This document shows positions 28,319-46,460 of a stretch of 64,000 nt of DNA, in pieces. Source of the DNA: Acidimicrobiaceae bacterium (GTDB lineage Bacteria > Actinomycetota > Acidimicrobiia > Acidimicrobiales > RAAP-2); assembly GCA_003132305.1 (NCBI GenBank), contig PKXJ01000032.1, forward strand, positions 185,358-249,357. The letters run 5' to 3'. Under the pieces are notes generated by a model, which saw only the letters and a list, made by a program, of their open reading frames with translations, was not told the DNA's origin and made no database searches. The position numbers and the translations under genes are program-made. Position 1 is the first letter of the stretch. The number at the start of each line of letters is the position of its first letter.

Positions 28319-28567
28319 GGGCTACGAGTGGTCTGTGGTTGAAAGTCGATGCCAGTCGCGGGCGAAACGACCCACGTAAGGCGTCTTGTTGACGCTGAGC
28401 ATGGCGCGGTTTAGAAGTAAGTCCTGCCCCGGGGCGATCATCGTGATCGTCGAGGGAGCCGGTGAAGTGTGCGAGAACACACTGGGAGAGCGCAAGCTGC
28501 CCAGGGTACGCACGGACACCGCCGCAGGCAGGTGTGGGGTCAAAGACCAGGTCAGCACTCGTAGCCC
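28319..28567 (+). ncRNA. Candidate structured RNA (about 249 nt) upstream of secA
   Basis: Perfect 12-bp closing stem GGGCTACGAGTG (28319-28330) / CACTCGTAGCCC (28556-28567); internal hairpins GCGTC-TTGTT-GACGC (28381-28395), CGATCA-TCG-TGATCG (28435-28449), AGTGTG-CGAGAA-CACACT (28466-28483), AGC-GCAA-GCT within CTGGG/CCCAG (28482-28504), GGTC-AAA-GACC (28538-28548). No convincing ORF on either strand. Confidence 0.72.
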
Positions 28568-28606
28568 TCTTGATGTCCCCGTTCGACCGGTAGGGTGAAG
28601 CACGAT

Positions 28607-31294
28607 ATGAGCGTATTACAGAAGATTTTGAAGGCCGGCGAGGGCAAGCGAGTTCGCCAACTCGCGGAGTTAGTCCCGCCAATTAACGAGCTCGCCGGCG
28701 AGATGGCGGCCCTAACGGACGCCGAACTGCGCGCAAAGACCGACGTCTTTCGTGAGCGTCTCATCGAAGGCGAAACCCTCGACGACCTGTTGATCGAGGC
28801 CTTTGCCGTGGTCCGAGAGGCCGCGACGCGCGTGCTCGGTCAGCGCCACTACGACGTGCAACTCATGGGCGGGATGGCGTTGCACTTTGGCTGGATCGCT
28901 GAAATGAAGACCGGTGAGGGAAAGACCCTCGTGTCGACGTTGCCGGTCTACTTGAACGCGCTCGCCGGTAACGGTGTCCACGTCGTGACGGTGAACGACT
29001 ACCTCGCCACGCGCGACGCGAACTGGATGGGCGAACTCCACCGGTTCCTGGGCCTCACGGTCGGTCGCGTGGGACCGGACCTCCAAGAGTTCGACGAAAA
29101 GCGCGAGGCCTACGCCGCGGACGTGACCTACGGCACGAACACCGAGTTCGGCTTCGACTACCTTCGCGACAACATGGCCCGACGCGCCGAGCACATGGTC
29201 CAGCGCGGACACCGCTACGCCATTGTCGACGAGGTCGACTCGATTTTGATCGACGAGGCGCGAACGCCACTCATCATCTCGGGGCCGGCCTCTGACGTCA
29301 CCAAGCTCTACTACCAGTTCGCGTCCATCGCTCGCTCGCTCACCCGCGACACTGACTACGAGGTGGACGAGGAGAAGAAGACGGTCATGCCCACGGAAGC
29401 CGGTATTGAGAAGGTCGAGCGTCAACTCGGCGTGACCAACCTCTACGACGCGGTGGCGACGAACTACGTGCACCAACTCGGCCAGGCGCTGCGGGCCAAG
29501 GAACTCTTCCACCGCGACAAGGACTACCTGGTCGACGCCGGTGAGGTGAAGATCGTCGACGAGTTCACCGGGCGCACCCTCGAGGGTCGTCGCTGGAGCG
29601 ACGGTCTGCACCAGGCCGTCGAGGCCAAGGAGCGCGTGCGTATCCAAGAGGAGAATCACACGTGGGCGACGGTCACCCTGCAGAACTACTTCCGTCTCTA
29701 CGAGAAGCTCGCCGGCATGACGGGTACCGCCGAAACGGAAGCCGCGGAGTTTGGTAACACGTACAAGCTCTCGGTCGTGCCGATTCCCACCAATGAACCG
29801 GCGATTCGCGATGACAAGGCCGATCTCATCTACAAGACCGAGGCCGCGAAGTTCTCAGCCATCGTGGACGACGTGCGCGAGCGTTCCGACTTGGGACAAC
29901 CCATTCTGCTCGGTACCGCGTCGGTCGAGAAGTCCGAGCTGTTGAGCCGCGAACTCTCCAAGGCCGGCATCACGCACGAGGTCTTGAACGCGAAGCAACA
30001 CTTTCGCGAGGCCGAGATTGTCGCCCAAGCCGGACGCAAGGGCGCCGTCACGGTGGCGACGAACATGGCCGGTCGAGGCGTCGACGTGATTCTCGGAGGC
30101 AACTTCGAAGGACTCGCGGTGCGTGACGCCGCCGCTCAAGGCTTCGCGCCCGGAAGTGAGGAGTACGAGGCGGCCTATCAAAAGGCGTGCGCCAAGTGGA
30201 AGCCGGTCACGCAAAGCGACGGGGATCAGGTGCGGGCCCTCGGGGGACTGTACGTGCTCGGCACCGAGCGGCACGACTCGCGACGCATTGACAATCAGTT
30301 ACGGGGTCGTTCGGGGCGCCAGGGCGACCCCGGCGAAAGTCGCTTCTACCTCTCGCTCGAAGACGAACTCCTGCGAGTGTTCGCGACCGGCGCGGTGTCG
30401 TGGGTCATGGATCGCACCATGCCCGAGGACGAGGCGATTGAGGCAAAAATGGTGTCGAAGGCGATTGAGCGCGCGCAGAACACCGTCGAAGCGCGCAACG
30501 CCGAAATTCGTAAGGACGTCCTTAAGTACGACGAAGTCATGAACGAACAGCGCAAGGTCATCTACGGCCGTCGTCAGCAGGTTATCGACGGTGAGGATAT
30601 TCACGACGCGACCCTCGAGATGCTCGAAGAAAAGCTCACCGAAGCCATTGACGCTCAACTCGGCAACGGCTTCGTCGAAGAGTGGGATCTGAACGCCCTG
30701 GTCTTGGATCTTCAGTCGCTCTATCCGACCGAACAAACCGTCGAGTCGCTGCGCGCCTACAGCGACGTCGACGACGTCGTGGCCCTCGTCGTCGACGAAG
30801 CCGTTGGTCAGTACGAAAAGAAGTCGGAGAACTTTCCCGGAGGTCTCGACACCGCCAAGGAGATAGAGCGTGACGTCATGCTCCAAATTCTGGACCAGCG
30901 TTGGCGTGATCATCTCTCGGACATGGACTATCTGCGAGACGGTATCCACCTTCGCCAGGTCGCCCAACAAGACCCCTTGAACGCGTGGCAAAAAGAGGGG
31001 TACTTGATGTTCGAGCACCTGCTCGACGCCGTCGATGTTGACTACGTTCGCTACATCACCCACGTCGAGGCCGCGATCGAGCCGGCCGCGGCCGGTGACG
31101 AGGACGAGGGGCTCGAGGGCGCACTGACGAACGCCGACGCCGTGGCGCCCGGCGCGACCGAACTGCCCGCGCAGGAAGCCGCGCCCAAGGGCGCGCCCAA
31201 AGCTGGCGCCAAGCACACGGAAAAGATCGGTCGAAACGATCCCTGCTGGTGTGGCTCGAAACGCAAGTTCAAGCAGTGCCATGGCCGACCCTAA
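28607..31294 (+). CDS. secA: Preprotein translocase SecA
   Basis: MKTGEGKTLVSTLPVYLNAL; DEVDSILIDEARTPLIISG; GRGVDVILGG; C-terminal SEC-C GRNDPCWCGSKRKFKQCHG. Confidence 0.96.
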   Translation: MSVLQKILKAGEGKRVRQLAELVPPINELAGEMAALTDAELRAKTDVFRERLIEGETLDDLLIEAFAVVREAATRVLGQRHYDVQLMGGMALHFGWIAEMKTGEGKTLVSTLPVYLNALAGNGVHVVTVNDYLATRDANWMGELHRFLGLTVGRVGPDLQEFDEKREAYAADVTYGTNTEFGFDYLRDNMARRAEHMVQRGHRYAIVDEVDSILIDEARTPLIISGPASDVTKLYYQFASIARSLTRDTDYEVDEEKKTVMPTEAGIEKVERQLGVTNLYDAVATNYVHQLGQALRAKELFHRDKDYLVDAGEVKIVDEFTGRTLEGRRWSDGLHQAVEAKERVRIQEENHTWATVTLQNYFRLYEKLAGMTGTAETEAAEFGNTYKLSVVPIPTNEPAIRDDKADLIYKTEAAKFSAIVDDVRERSDLGQPILLGTASVEKSELLSRELSKAGITHEVLNAKQHFREAEIVAQAGRKGAVTVATNMAGRGVDVILGGNFEGLAVRDAAAQGFAPGSEEYEAAYQKACAKWKPVTQSDGDQVRALGGLYVLGTERHDSRRIDNQLRGRSGRQGDPGESRFYLSLEDELLRVFATGAVSWVMDRTMPEDEAIEAKMVSKAIERAQNTVEARNAEIRKDVLKYDEVMNEQRKVIYGRRQQVIDGEDIHDATLEMLEEKLTEAIDAQLGNGFVEEWDLNALVLDLQSLYPTEQTVESLRAYSDVDDVVALVVDEAVGQYEKKSENFPGGLDTAKEIERDVMLQILDQRWRDHLSDMDYLRDGIHLRQVAQQDPLNAWQKEGYLMFEHLLDAVDVDYVRYITHVEAAIEPAAAGDEDEGLEGALTNADAVAPGATELPAQEAAPKGAPKAGAKHTEKIGRNDPCWCGSKRKFKQCHGRP

Positions 31295-40255: not shown

Positions 40256-42211
40256 ATGAGTACCATTCGAGGAGGAGTCGAGCAGAGTCGTGAACGACTC
40301 GTGGCCCTCGTGTTACTCCTCCAGCGTGCGTGGCAGTACGGGGCGCTCACGCAAGAAGAGATACTGCGCGATCTGAAGATCGACGAGTACCCCGCGGCGG
40401 CGAAGGGTCCTCGAAAGATTCGCGCCTACGAAGGCTTAGAGAGCACCGTTCGCCAGAAGTTCGAGCGCGACAAGGCTCGAATACGAGACCTCGGATTCGA
40501 GATTGAGACCGTCACCAACGACGACGGCTCGGTGGGGTACAAGATTGACCCGAAAAGTGGCTACGCCCCCCAGATCTACTTCAGCCCCGAGGAAGAACGC
40601 GTGGTCAAACTGGCGTTGTCGTTCTGTGGATTTGGTAAGTCCGGCGCCTTCAGCGTCTTTAACGACGTTCCGGCCAGTGACGGGGGACTCGAGGCGTCGA
40701 ACTACTACACCCCCGTCCTGCGCGCCTTGAATCTGCGTCGCGCGCTGGCCTTTGAGTACTTGTCCGCCACGAACAAACCGCGTCTCGTCGAGCCGCTCGT
40801 CATCGATGTCTTTGGCGGCGCCAGTTACCTCGTGGCTCGGGTCAAGGACACCAGCGAGATCAAGGGCTATCGCTTCACGCGCATGACCTCGATGCCCGTC
40901 GTGCTGCCCGACACCTTCGAGGTCGATAGCGACACGGCGTTCATCGCGCGCGCGTGGCGTCCCGAGTACGCGAAGGCGCCGCGGCCCCTCGACGTGGTCG
41001 TCTCGACCAACGAGAACTACGCCGAACTCTTGGTGCGTCAGTATCCGAACGCGCTGAGCGCCACGAAGAGCAACGGCACCGTCGAGGTCGGCGTTACCTT
41101 TGAAAGTCCGCGCGCGGCGCTTCGCCTACTACTCGACAGCGCCGATCGCGTACGACTCCAGTCGCCCAAGTCACTGAAGAACGAGCTCGCCGCGTGGCTG
41201 AAGGACGTCAACCGGGGTAAGACGCCCGACGTCACGACCCTGTCGTTCGACGTGGTGCCCACGAACGACGTGCTGGGCCAGACACTGCAACTACTTCACG
41301 CGGTGTACGTTAGTGAAGACGGCCTACGGATAAGTGAACTTTCGAAGCGTTTTTCCCTCACACCCGAGCACGTTCGTCTCATCATGGACCGCCTGGTGTC
41401 GCTCGAACCAATGGCCGAATCGACCGACGGAACCGATGCGTTTCCCGCCCACGTCCTCAAGGAGTGCGACGACTGGGACGACGAGTCGAACGATGACTCG
41501 ACCTATCGCGCGGACTTCTCCGATCTTCCCGAGGGCGCCGACGATCCCTCGCCCTTCATGTGGCGTGACCTCTTTGAACTGAATATCGCCCTTCGTGAGG
41601 CGTCACGTATCTACAACGACGAGGCCATCTTTTCAGCCATTGAAAAGATTGAGGACGCCACGAGGGCGCCGGTGCAGATCGAAATGGCCATGAACGAGGC
41701 GTTGCTCGCCCAAGTCGAGAGCGCCATTGAAAGTCATTCGCAGATCAAGATCGAGTACACGTCGGGCGTGAGCGGCGAGTCCCACGCTCGCGCCATCGAG
41801 CCCCGCGAGATGAAGGTCTTGAACGGTCACACCTACGTGCGCGCGTACTGCACCACGCGCGAAGCATGGCGGACGTTTCGCGTGGACCGCATCAACGCGG
41901 TCCTCGCGACGTCGCCCGTCCCCGAGACCCGCCCGCTCGACACGGTGTCGAACTGGCTGACCCAGGTGGGCGAAGAGGGCGACGAGGTCGTCGTGGTGGT
42001 GGAGGCGCCCAATCGTTGGCTCTTCGAGCCCCTGCCCGGCGCCCAGTGGCTGGTGCTCGGCGACGGCCGCCACGCCGTCAAGTTCCGGGTCTCGGACGCT
42101 CGTTTCGTCGACTATCTCATGTTGCGCGCCGGCCCGGGTGCCGTGGTCGCGACGCCCAAGTACGCCAAGGCGGGTCACGAACTCGCCAAGAGGATCGCCG
42201 CGCAGCTCTAG
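40256..42211 (+). CDS. Fused PafB-PafC-type regulator (two HTH/WYL modules)
   Basis: 651 aa: RGGVEQSRERLVALVLLLQRAWQYGALTQEEILRDLKI; second module VLGQTLQLLHAVYVSEDGLRISELSKRFSLTPEHVRLIMDRL; C-terminal WYL-like KIEYTSGVSGESHARAIEPREMKVLNGHTYVRAYCTTREAWRTFRVDRI. Confidence 0.85.
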   Translation: MSTIRGGVEQSRERLVALVLLLQRAWQYGALTQEEILRDLKIDEYPAAAKGPRKIRAYEGLESTVRQKFERDKARIRDLGFEIETVTNDDGSVGYKIDPKSGYAPQIYFSPEEERVVKLALSFCGFGKSGAFSVFNDVPASDGGLEASNYYTPVLRALNLRRALAFEYLSATNKPRLVEPLVIDVFGGASYLVARVKDTSEIKGYRFTRMTSMPVVLPDTFEVDSDTAFIARAWRPEYAKAPRPLDVVVSTNENYAELLVRQYPNALSATKSNGTVEVGVTFESPRAALRLLLDSADRVRLQSPKSLKNELAAWLKDVNRGKTPDVTTLSFDVVPTNDVLGQTLQLLHAVYVSEDGLRISELSKRFSLTPEHVRLIMDRLVSLEPMAESTDGTDAFPAHVLKECDDWDDESNDDSTYRADFSDLPEGADDPSPFMWRDLFELNIALREASRIYNDEAIFSAIEKIEDATRAPVQIEMAMNEALLAQVESAIESHSQIKIEYTSGVSGESHARAIEPREMKVLNGHTYVRAYCTTREAWRTFRVDRINAVLATSPVPETRPLDTVSNWLTQVGEEGDEVVVVVEAPNRWLFEPLPGAQWLVLGDGRHAVKFRVSDARFVDYLMLRAGPGAVVATPKYAKAGHELAKRIAAQL

Positions 42212-42242
42212 GCGACCGTTGGGCCCTTCGAAAGAGGTGCCC

Positions 42243-43319
42243 GTGATTCGTCTCATGCCCCGGCGTTCGAACGACGTCACGTACTTCACGAACGACCCCG
42301 CGCTCGAACTCGACGGTCTTCGCGAAGGGGGACCCGGCTGGTGGCTGCGCGGCGGCGGCGATGCGAGGGAACCGTCGGACGTGTCGAGCGTCTTGGTGAC
42401 GAGCGAACGCTCCAGAGTGCGGGGCTACGACGTGGTTATCGCCGCGCCGCGACCGATCTCGATCTTGCTCGCTGTCGATCCCGATCACGCGAGGGGCGTC
42501 GTCGCGGCACACCGGGCCTCGGTGCAGGCGTCGATCGACTACTTGGAAGATCGCGCGCTGGTCGTTCGCGAGCGGGGTGGTGGCGTCGAACGCGATTCGG
42601 CGGGTCGGTGGCAAAGTGTCGTGAGCTTCACGCACGGACTGAACCGACACGGAGAGCCGCACCTGCACGACCACGTACTCGTCGGCGCGAGACCTGAGGG
42701 TCACCGTAACGTCCTCGATTCGCGCGCACTCTACGCGCACGCGCTAGCGGCGGACGCCCTCTACCGCGCGTCGTTGCGCCACGAGCTGGCCGAGCGCACG
42801 CCGTGGTCGGCGTGGCGCTCGTTCGAAGGCGTCGAACGCGTGGTCGGTCTCGACGAAGGGTATCGCGCGCTCTGGAGTGGTCACCAGCGAGACCGCGGCG
42901 AAAAACTCTCGTGGAGTCGAGACGAGACCCTTTCGTCGTGGTCTCGTGACCACGCGCGCTACGAATCCCTGGGCGTCGCCAAAGCGCCGCAGAACAGTCG
43001 TCACCTCCTGGACGAACATCGATTCGCGGGCGCCCTCGAGGGACGTCACGACGTCGCGCGTCGTCACCTGCTCGCCGCCTGGGCCGACGCGGCGAGCTTC
43101 GGACAAGATCCGAGGAACATATCTCGAGCGATCGACGACCTCTACCCTGGTCTCCAAGGCGGGAGGGGAGTGTACGAACCCACCATCGGCGTGCACGAAG
43201 CGCGCATGATCGGTTCCGTGCGCGTGATTGGTCCGCGTCCCCTCGACCGAAGCCAGTTTGACGACTGGCGTCAACGATCTCGAGAAGTGGTTCGCTCCCG
43301 TGAGGGGCGTTCGAGGTAG
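42243..43319 (+). CDS. MobF/TrwC-type relaxase domain protein (no helicase domain)
   Basis: NDVTYFTNDPALELDGLREGGPGWWLRG; RGYDVVIAAPRPISILLAVDP (cf. GFDxxxSAPKSVSxL); HUH-type HGLNRHGEPHLHDHVLVGAR. Starts 31 nt after the pafBC stop on the same strand. Confidence 0.72.
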   Translation: MIRLMPRRSNDVTYFTNDPALELDGLREGGPGWWLRGGGDAREPSDVSSVLVTSERSRVRGYDVVIAAPRPISILLAVDPDHARGVVAAHRASVQASIDYLEDRALVVRERGGGVERDSAGRWQSVVSFTHGLNRHGEPHLHDHVLVGARPEGHRNVLDSRALYAHALAADALYRASLRHELAERTPWSAWRSFEGVERVVGLDEGYRALWSGHQRDRGEKLSWSRDETLSSWSRDHARYESLGVAKAPQNSRHLLDEHRFAGALEGRHDVARRHLLAAWADAASFGQDPRNISRAIDDLYPGLQGGRGVYEPTIGVHEARMIGSVRVIGPRPLDRSQFDDWRQRSREVVRSREGRSR

Positions 43320-44569
43320 GAGCGGAACCGCGCGTCACGGTAGACGGGCGTCAGCTCCACCCATTTGAGATGGTTCCGCGCGTCGAGGCCCAACGCGCGT
43401 CCCTCTCGCCCCTGGGCCAGCTCACTCATCGTGACGCGATCTCGCTCCACCCAGCTGGTCGAATGCCCGAGGGTTCGACCCCTCGAGTCGCGTTGCACGC
43501 TAGGAGAAGACGTCAACTCACGCCCCGCCAGGTGCCGGAGCATTTCGAGCGTGGTGCGGTCGGCGATCCCGGGCAGAACCAGGGTCGTTGGAAAGAGGGA
43601 GAGGAAGCCCTCCGCCGAAGCTCCCCATCGACTGCGGGCTTGGCTGAGGTCTTGCAGGCACGCGAGGGTCAGGACCCCCTGGCCCCCGCCCTCGGACACG
43701 ATGCTCGCGAGACGCGGTAGCGGAGCGACGTTCGCGAGTTCGTCGAGGGCGAGCAAGAGCCGAGCCCCTTCGTGGTGGCGATCGTAGGTCGCGTGCACGA
43801 GCTCTTCCACGAGACCAACCACGAGCGGTATGGTCACGGCTTGATGTCGACTGGGTGCCACGACGTGCAGTTGGTGCGGGCCCCTTAAGAACTCGTCGAC
43901 GTCGAGCGGCGCTTCTCGGGCCGAAGCGCGAGCGGCCTCGGTGCGCACGCCCGCGAAAAGCCCGGCGGTCGTGGACCAGATACTCGATCGTTCACGCTCT
44001 TCGGTGGCTAAAACGCCTCGAAGCAACGTTACGGCTGGATGACGATCTCCGTGACGTTCGCTCAGTTCGTGAAGGAGATCGTCACACTTTCTTTCGTCGA
44101 CACGAGAGGCGAGTTGGCCGAGCGACTCGTGTCGAAGCGCGCTCGCGTGCATCAGCGGCGCGACGAGAGCACCCGCTCGTTCGCTCCAGTGGTCGTCGCC
44201 GCGATCACCTCGACCACGTCGCGCGACGTCCAGCAAGCTCCGAGAAGCCAAAACTGCGCCGTCCCAAGATAAGGATTGTCTTAAAGGTGAATATCCAACG
44301 CGATGCACTCCCGGTGGTGTAACGACCGTTCCCGACGGATCAAAGAGAAGTGTCACGCCGTCGTGACGTGTTCGCGCCATGAGTGTGAGCACGTCACTCT
44401 TCGTCGACGTAATGACGCATGAATCCGATGTCATCAGGAGATTTGGAACAATGATTGACGTTGTCTTTCCACTTCGCGTTGGACCTAACACGAGTGCGGA
44501 ACGTTCGCGACCACTCATCGCGTCGCCGTTTGTACCGCGTCCTAAGTAGACGCCGGAGTCAGATAGCAC
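43271..44569 (-). CDS. VirD4/TraG-type coupling-protein-like ATPase
   Basis: Walker A LVLGPTRSGKTTSIIVPNLL; Walker B LLLALDELANVAPLPRLASIVSEGGGQGVLTLACLQDLSQARSRWG. Start uncertain (GTG 44569 chosen; GTG 44668 and ATG 44518 also possible). The ORF-track N-terminus is antisense to the Lys-rich repeat gene. Confidence 0.75.
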   Translation of the reverse strand: MLSDSGVYLGRGTNGDAMSGRERSALVLGPTRSGKTTSIIVPNLLMTSDSCVITSTKSDVLTLMARTRHDGVTLLFDPSGTVVTPPGVHRVGYSPLRQSLSWDGAVLASRSLLDVARRGRGDRGDDHWSERAGALVAPLMHASALRHESLGQLASRVDERKCDDLLHELSERHGDRHPAVTLLRGVLATEERERSSIWSTTAGLFAGVRTEAARASAREAPLDVDEFLRGPHQLHVVAPSRHQAVTIPLVVGLVEELVHATYDRHHEGARLLLALDELANVAPLPRLASIVSEGGGQGVLTLACLQDLSQARSRWGASAEGFLSLFPTTLVLPGIADRTTLEMLRHLAGRELTSSPSVQRDSRGRTLGHSTSWVERDRVTMSELAQGREGRALGLDARNHLKWVELTPVYRDARFRSYLERPSRERTTSRDR

Positions 44570-44864
44570 GTTGTACCATCGGTCGAAATAAATCTCGAAA
44601 TACTTGACATTGGTGTGAATAACGACTGGACTTTTAGATGTCCTTCTGCGGAGGAGGTACACGTTGTTCACTACGTTGCTTGCAACGTTACGAAGAGCGC
44701 TTCTTCGCGTAGGACCGTGCACTGCGATCAGTCGCCGCACAGCCGGGAGGTTGGGTGGTACATGGCCGAGTTCATGAGATATCAATGCGGTGCCTGAAGT
44801 GAGTACACCAGTACGGTGCCTCGAGGTCCCAATTTGAATCAACGTTGAGTCCCAAGGAGGGAAT

Positions 44865-45125
44865 GTGGCACCAGCCGCGAAGAAGAGGGCTGCAGCCAAA
44901 AAGGCTCCAGCCAAGAAGCGTCCTGCAGCGAAGAAGGCCGCGAAGAAGCGTCCTGCTGCGAAGAAGGCCGCGAAGAAGCGTCCAGCCGCGAAGAAGGCCG
45001 CGAAGAAGCGTCCTGCGAAGAAGGCTGCGAAGAAGCGTCCTGCTGCGAAGAAGGCCGCGAAGAAGCGCCCTGCGAAGAAGGCTGCGAAGAAGCGTGCTCC
45101 AGCCAAGAGGGCCGCAAAGAAGTAG
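44865..45125 (+). CDS. Lys/Ala/Pro-repeat basic protein (histone H1-like / HupB-tail-like)
   Basis: GTG start with strong SD AAGGAGG; MAPAAKKRAAAKKAPAKKRPAAKKAAKKRPAAKK... 86 aa; followed by tandem hairpins. Confidence 0.82.
   Translation: MAPAAKKRAAAKKAPAKKRPAAKKAAKKRPAAKKAAKKRPAAKKAAKKRPAKKAAKKRPAAKKAAKKRPAKKAAKKRAPAKRAAKK
44929..45095 (+). repeat. Tandem coding repeat, 30-bp (and 27-bp variant) units encoding AAKKAAKKRP
   Basis: Repeated GCGAAGAAGGCCGCGAAGAAGCGTCCT(GCT) with minor variants read directly. Confidence 0.85.
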
Positions 45126-45183: not shown

Positions 45184-45729
45184 CTAGGCGGTGTCGAGAT
45201 CGTTTGGTTCGTCGACGTCGAAGCGCCAGGGGCTCGTGGTGACGACGCGGTAGCTGGCGTCGACGCGTTTCGCCTCAGCGACGTGACGGCCTAGGGAGTC
45301 ACTCCCGTAGGCGAAGTGAAAGTCGAGTCCCGTAGGGATGACCAAAACGTTGGTTCCTTCTTCGTGATGATCGGCAAAGAGAGTGATGCCCGGCTCGAAC
45401 GCGAAGGTGCCGAGTCCTTCGGGAAAACGCAGGTCGCCGTGGACGATGATGAGTTGATCGAAGCGGCCTCTCAGCCCCTCGTAGACGCCCTGTACGGCTT
45501 CGTTGAGGTTCGAAGCCGTGGACGTCCATACTTCGGCGCCCATCGACGTGGCGAAGCGCGCGACGTCGGGGTCTTCACTCGCGACGATGACGGTGCGCGG
45601 CTGAGAACTGATGAGAACACCTCGAGCGAGATCTTGGGCGAAGCGCGCGACGTCGAGGTCAGTGCCCTGGCGAAGTCGTTCCTTAGCTCGGTCAAAGCGT
45701 TTGAGGGGAACGACGATGGCCTCAGTCAT
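45184..45729 (-). CDS. cofC: 2-phospho-L-lactate guanylyltransferase-like (F420 biosynthesis)
   Basis: MTEAIVVPLKRFDRAKERL; VIVASEDPDVARFATSMGAEVW; LIIVHGDLRFP; ITLFADHHEEGTNVLVIP; FAYGSDSLGRHVAEAKR; DVDEPNDLD. Confidence 0.87.
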   Translation of the reverse strand: MTEAIVVPLKRFDRAKERLRQGTDLDVARFAQDLARGVLISSQPRTVIVASEDPDVARFATSMGAEVWTSTASNLNEAVQGVYEGLRGRFDQLIIVHGDLRFPEGLGTFAFEPGITLFADHHEEGTNVLVIPTGLDFHFAYGSDSLGRHVAEAKRVDASYRVVTTSPWRFDVDEPNDLDTA

Positions 45730-45773: not shown

Positions 45774-46460
45774 GTGAAGGCCCCGCCCCTCGATCTCCTC
45801 GAGTACGAACGAGCGCTACTCGATCGAGGTGAAGTCGTCGTGGGCATCGATGAGGTCGGACGGGGAGCGCTCGCCGGACCCCTGACCGTGGGTGCCGTCG
45901 TGATAAAAGAAGTGCTTGCGCCGCCAGAAGGGCTCAACGACTCCAAGCTCTTAACGCCCGCGCAACGTACGTCACTCGTGGGTCCGCTCTCACGTTGGGC
46001 CTTCGAGTGGTCGCTCGGTTCCGTGAGTGCCTTTGAGATTGACGAGTGGGGACTGCGCCTCGCGCTGGCGGTGGCGGCGACTCGTGCACTCAACGCTCTC
46101 ACGTCGTCGCCAACGCACGCACTCATCGACGGGTCGATCAACCTCCTTCACAGCCCTTTGCACGTGCGTTTCGGGGCCAGTACGCCACCACCGCTTTGCT
46201 ATGGCGCGCTACGGGTGACGACCATCGTGAAGGGCGACCAGCGATGCGCCACCATCGCTGCCGCGTCGGTACTGGCGAAGGTGCATCGCGACGCACTCAT
46301 GGTTTCCCTGCACGAGGAGTTCCACGAGTACCAGTGGGCCCGCAACAAGGGCTACGGAGCTCCCGAGCACCTGGAAGCCCTGCGGCGGCGCGGCGCCAGT
46401 GAGCACCATCGAAAGTCGTGGAATCTGCCCAAAGTCACCCCGGCCCACGGAGCGACGTAG
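45774..46460 (+). CDS. rnhB: Ribonuclease HII
   Basis: VVGIDEVGRGALAGPLTVGAVVI; LNDSKLLTPAQR; HALIDGS; DQRCATIAAASVLAKVHRD; NKGYGAPEHLEAL. Confidence 0.93.
   Translation: MKAPPLDLLEYERALLDRGEVVVGIDEVGRGALAGPLTVGAVVIKEVLAPPEGLNDSKLLTPAQRTSLVGPLSRWAFEWSLGSVSAFEIDEWGLRLALAVAATRALNALTSSPTHALIDGSINLLHSPLHVRFGASTPPPLCYGALRVTTIVKGDQRCATIAAASVLAKVHRDALMVSLHEEFHEYQWARNKGYGAPEHLEALRRRGASEHHRKSWNLPKVTPAHGAT

Follow-up and report, generated by a model that had tools for sequence, protein, structure and literature searches.

A 64,000-nt stretch of contig PKXJ01000032.1 from an Acidimicrobiaceae bacterium, hereafter called the window, carries a chromosomal gene for a MOB_F (TrwC-like) relaxase that converges with a gene for a VirD4/TrwB-type coupling ATPase (type IV coupling protein, T4CP), and a PafBC-like transcription factor is encoded directly upstream of the relaxase. 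The relaxase/T4CP pair has very probably been domesticated, and we lean slightly towards reading this locus as half of a conjugation apparatus that is old, vertically inherited and split, for which the functional steps proposed below are inferred. The four open reading frames (ORFs) of a preliminary description of this DNA (pafBC, relaxase, T4CP and a Lys/Ala-rich protein) were all present at their positions.

Identity of the relaxase and the coupling ATPase

The product of positions 42243-43319 (plus strand, 358 aa) matched the Pfam TrwC family (PF08751, E=1.4e-26) above its curated cut-off, and scored 84.6 bits with the NCBIfam MobF model, under the cut-off of 100 of that model. In the PDB, a profile of 41 orthologues retrieved no structures but those of TrwC and TraI. 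AlphaFold models of this protein and of the ATPase were made from orthologue alignments; searched with Foldseek, the relaxase model (predicted local distance difference test, pLDDT, 89) retrieved TrwC/TraI relaxases with E values down to 7e-10 and, besides these, nothing under 0.001. The HUH motif HGLNRHGEPHLHDH (positions 42633-42674, plus strand; His131...His142-x-His144) aligns its three histidines to those of the TrwC motif with identical spacing. These histidines and Tyr14 (codon at 42282-42284, plus strand) were invariant in the 41 orthologues; Tyr14 is the N-terminal candidate for the catalytic residue and lies outside the segment aligned by HMMER. TrwC was the sole Pfam domain found in the 358 aa, which hold a relaxase domain only and no helicase domain. 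By domain and predicted fold, this product is a genuine MOB_F relaxase with a predicted nicking function, as the preliminary description had proposed from its motifs.

The convergent gene (43271-44569, minus strand) encodes a protein of 432 aa that matched the Pfam families T4SS-DNA_transf (2e-20) and TraG-D_C (1.5e-15), and whose model (pLDDT 74) retrieved the Cagbeta and TrwB ATPases with Foldseek, in agreement with the VirD4/TraG-like assignment made earlier. The Walker A (GPTRSGKT) and Walker B (LLLALDE) motifs were conserved, some Walker A motifs having Ser in place of Thr, and an all-alpha insertion was found, as in VirD4, TrwB and Cagbeta. Its domains and modelled fold identify it as a genuine VirD4/TrwB-type coupling ATPase lacking a membrane anchor. 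The two genes overlap tail to tail by 49 nt (43271-43319). Across 41 loci the overlap ranged from 40 to 121 nt, being 49 nt in 24 of them, and it encodes tails rich in Arg, Ser, Asp and Glu on both proteins, one on each strand.

Conservation within the genus

A relaxase orthologue was present in all 37 same-genus genomes searched, as a single copy above the search threshold, with 43-84% identity among congeners (the window's own genome left out) and without internal stops. The ATPase orthologue was found in about 95 of 99 genomes of the genus, the four others being fragmented metagenome-assembled genomes (MAGs). In a synteny set of 49 named MAG loci, mostly from samples of palsa, bog and fen according to their titles, genes followed the order dxs-(tldD-tldE)-fmdB-moaC-pafBC-mobF><t4cp-cofC-rnhB-ABC (>< marks convergent genes) as far as the contigs reach, apart from small local differences, for instance a lack of tldD-tldE in some loci; conservation of the three-gene block across the genus is far above chance. 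Intact genes were seen in 45/49 relaxase loci and 42/46 ATPase loci, and the rest were truncated at contig ends or interrupted by gaps or apparent frameshifts. Five loci (L091, L097, L099, L114 and L092) belong to records titled Acidobacteria or Saccharibacteria, although the locus is that of the Acidimicrobiales MAGs; these titles are probably wrong.

The ratio of nonsynonymous to synonymous substitution rates (dN/dS) in the closest pairs was about 0.08-0.17 for the relaxase and mostly 0.04-0.10 for the ATPase, showing purifying selection. The trees of MobF, ATPase, PafBC and dxs had 10-13 well-supported splits in common, indicating that inheritance was mainly vertical, with some recombination or noise. 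The nearest plasmid relatives were less than 40% identical.

Relaxases and T4CPs are both typical of mobile elements, so that the pair might be taken for a degraded integrative and conjugative or mobilisable element (ICE/IME), or for a recent insertion. Its distribution, synteny and selection lead us to reject this explanation: the pair occupies a single site throughout the genus, its synteny reaches past the family, dN/dS is far under 1, and there was no tRNA in the window and no integrase among the flanking ORFs that were read. Sporadic occurrence, an adjacent integrase, frameshifted orthologues or a product without a relaxase fold, any of which would have spoken against the preliminary reading, were checked and not borne out. 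On these sequence data a remnant is effectively excluded, and the earlier view of the pair as intact and domesticated holds.

The locus beyond the genus

Order-wide profile searches, region retrieval and hidden Markov model mapping identified 60 ATPase loci from other genera, in 19 families including the window's own, f1 (family labels are anonymous handles). A convergent MobF gene adjoined the ATPase gene in 20 of the 60, in seven families (f1, f21, f22, f31, f47, f48 and f60), and in 16 loci PafBC was encoded 5' of MobF. The ATPase gene had a divergent HU gene as its neighbour in 21 loci, and cofC was present in 21; the entire order PafBC-MobF><T4CP-HU-cofC-rnhB was found in loci L170 and L171. 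The arrangement pafBC-mobF><t4cp recurs in other families of the order, where hupB, cofC and rnhB often follow it. In several families (e.g. f16, f32, f50 and f61) the ATPase gene is placed elsewhere, without these neighbours.

The short MobF frame (about 360-440 codons) occurs in f1 and f21, and elsewhere the protein is usually longer. L171 and L168 encode proteins of 725-833 aa in which no helicase was recognised, and L182, whose genes are arranged in tandem, encodes one of 1008 aa that includes a helicase. In a phylum-wide sample, a single genome from another order scored better than 1e-55. These comparisons suggest that the locus is old and chromosomal and that the relaxase was trimmed in the lineage of the window.

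A second, unlinked locus

The preliminary description had noted the absence of any type IV secretion system (T4SS) channel gene. This stands at the locus itself but not in the genome, because another contig (G000:C18, L118:7909-12389) carries a channel-like operon, here called locus B. It encodes a membrane protein similar to VirB6, a protein resembling the SCO6880 family (under the family cut-off), a VirB4-like ATPase and a paralogue of VirD4. It is flanked by serS and a two-component pair on one side and by a ROK gene on the other. Its order was kept in congeners, and loci from about ten families likewise lie beside serS and the histidine kinase and response regulator genes.

Among 298 genomes of the order, VirB4 of locus B was found in 78/84 ATPase-positive and in 27/214 ATPase-negative genomes (odds ratio 90), a co-occurrence confounded by phylogeny, as the genomes are not independent and the p-value overstates it. 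The description of the system as minimal can thus not be kept, since a separate, syntenic chromosomal VirB6-SCO6880-VirB4-VirD4 operon co-occurs with it across the order.

Two other regions of the same genome contain conjugation genes. One is ICE-like (L116/L117, G000:C7), with an integrase, T4CP pieces, a VirB4-like ORF, a MobF of 1183 aa and a restriction subunit; in the other (L115, G000:C28) a second long MobF, of 1201 aa, is encoded near an RHS/RCC1 protein.

The PafBC-like regulator

The gene at 40256-42211 (plus strand) ends 31 nt before the relaxase gene on the same strand and encodes a fused PafBC-like protein of 651 aa, with two WYL domains and a WCX domain in Pfam and a match to the PafBC structure 6sj9 in the PDB (E=1.6e-11); the Pfam PafC helix-turn-helix domain was not detected in it. 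The gene lies directly 5' of mobF throughout the genus, as it does at loci from several further families, so that both the identity of the regulator and its linkage to the relaxase, as first proposed, were confirmed. In mycobacteria, PafBC is activated by single-stranded DNA (ssDNA) and acts in DNA-damage control (PMC11804915).

Proposed function and alternative explanations

In the apparatus that we propose, MobF would nick one strand at a chromosomal site and remain attached to the 5' end, and the soluble T4CP would dock the relaxase-ssDNA complex and pump it toward a membrane channel, which may be formed by the products of the VirB6, SCO6880-like, VirB4 and VirD4 genes of locus B. The outcome would be the export of the cell's own chromosomal ssDNA or its donation from cell to cell, and the upstream PafBC could make expression of the relaxase respond to ssDNA or to DNA damage. 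We give a function of the pair in DNA transfer or export about even chances. The broader proposal that many families of Acidimicrobiales own a chromosomal donor machine that is divided between two core loci and responds to ssDNA under PafBC control is tentative, and we consider it rather less likely.

Several observations weigh against this apparatus, besides the phylogenetic confounding of the co-occurrence. Six ATPase-positive genomes had no VirB4 at the threshold used, VirB4 was not detected in 6/26 checked genomes of the family, and the window ATPase need not serve locus B, because the latter carries its own VirD4. By hydropathy, 0/98 ATPase orthologue rows, in which some loci were counted twice, had any transmembrane segment, such as the N-terminal anchor usual in classical VirD4, and strand displacement would need another enzyme because MobF has no helicase. 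No origin of transfer (oriT) was identified at the locus. A RecA-NDp-like promoter, as expected for PafBC control, was sought with up to 3 mismatches to the consensus, a mycobacterial form for which chance matches are frequent, and none was found upstream of pafBC or of the ATPase gene. Some well-supported splits conflicted in every pair of trees, including PafBC versus dxs. Finally, the sequences are mostly MAGs or drafts, for which calls of absence hang on thresholds.

The main rival to the split apparatus is an internal role, in which the relaxase would process or resolve structures in ssDNA at replication or repair intermediates, the ATPase would be a DNA translocase and PafBC would mark a setting of DNA maintenance. 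An ATPase without membrane anchor, a MobF without helicase, the conserved coupling to a PafBC-like regulator, the genus-wide retention as core gene and the several families that retain the ATPase without a nearby MobF would all be consistent with it. The complete active site of the relaxase and the retained TraG-type recognition domain argue in the other direction, and an internal role gives no obvious reason for the strong co-occurrence with the VirB6/VirB4/VirD4 operon; we regard it as unlikely, though worth serious consideration. A resident relaxase and ATPase might instead process incoming plasmids and ICEs or mobilise elements in trans, as the ICE-like region and the other long MobF of this genome could suggest. 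Such a guardian or helper function seems improbable, because vertical inheritance at a single locus and fixed synteny differ from most defence systems, and the pair is kept also in genomes without any other detectable T4CP.

Neighbouring genes and other features of the window

The Lys/Ala-repeat protein of 86 aa (44865-45125, plus strand) had been counted as part of the module. It is kept in the genus with variable length, and Pfam detected no HU domain in it; it consists of a Lys/Ala tail alone, and a separate HU gene lies elsewhere in the genome. Its gene takes the position of hupB in a hupB-cofC neighbourhood. In other families this slot is occupied by an HU gene with a DNA-binding domain or by a longer basic protein, and because HU genes fill it there, membership of the module is unlikely; from its sequence and position the protein is probably a nucleoid-type neighbour outside the module. 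It is followed by the syntenic flanking anchors cofC (45184-45729, minus strand) and rnhB (45774-46460, plus strand), named as in the preliminary description.

Between the ATPase and Lys/Ala genes there is a strongly conserved block (44591-44864), which contains TTGACA and measures about 295 nt in most loci of the genus. Within it, a 61-nt hairpin (44716-44776, plus strand) showed covariation, with 98.1% of alignment cells paired and 42 double-change cells versus 10 in shuffles, and covariation was also far over slid controls. The hairpin occurs as one copy per genome and matched no Rfam family. Its single copy and its placement would suit an oriT, but many of its plus-strand pairs are G-U, corresponding to A-C on the other strand. 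Because these G-U pairs are frequent, a plus-strand RNA fits better, and the hairpin is probably a leader or small RNA whose membership of the module is only putative.

The sole Rfam match of the window was a raiA RNA motif (152 bits, 28322-28564), far from the locus. A large ORF (28595-31294) lies directly 3' of this motif, and judged by reading of its translation it probably encodes SecA.

Comparison with known systems and significance

The window MobF is like TrwC of R388 and TraI of F in its TrwC Pfam domain, three-histidine spacing and relaxase fold, with a candidate for their N-terminal Tyr, and differs from them in its short, helicase-less form, in its place as a chromosomal core gene and in falling under the NCBIfam MobF cut-off. 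The ATPase has the Walker motifs, TraG-D_C domain, all-alpha insertion and fold in common with VirD4, TrwB and Cagbeta, in contrast to which it has no transmembrane anchor, is encoded convergently to the relaxase and is unlinked to a channel operon.

Chromosomal relaxase and T4CP genes with a proposed output of chromosomal ssDNA are also known from ssDNA secretion by the Gonococcal Genetic Island and from high-frequency recombination (Hfr) strains (PMC12857230). In the gonococcal case, however, the relaxase is of the MOB_H type and an F-like T4SS is linked to it on the island, whereas here a MOB_F relaxase, split loci and vertical inheritance are found (PMC12857230). TdtA, of Thermus thermophilus transjugation, is likewise an ATPase without secretion signal, which is hexameric and pushes chromosomal DNA out (PMC5365140), but its gene is part of a mobile element, its partners are NurA and a restriction enzyme, the DNA that it pumps is probably double-stranded, and it is HerA-like rather than VirD4-like (PMC5365140). 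The cmdABCDEF genes of Streptomyces coelicolor encode a chromosomal VirB4-like ATPase and membrane proteins (PMC2782261); they may be compared with locus B in kind, but no relaxase or VirD4 is described for them and they affect differentiation (PMC2782261). An incomplete literature search found no publication on a locus such as the present one.

Relaxases and coupling proteins are usually taken as signatures of mobile elements. The intact pair of the window behaves as part of the core chromosome, with a synteny older than the family, a PafBC-like neighbour and co-inheritance with a stripped T4SS operon. Counts of relaxases or T4CPs would thus overestimate the ICEs of such genomes. If the pair neither transfers nor exports DNA, it would represent a new cellular job for an HUH relaxase. 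If DNA is transferred or exported, uncultivated soil and peat actinobacteria would have a vertically inherited chromosomal route of gene exchange, and, should the donor-machine proposal be true, the lineage would inherit chromosomal conjugation or ssDNA export as a trait of its own and not owe it to plasmids or ICEs.

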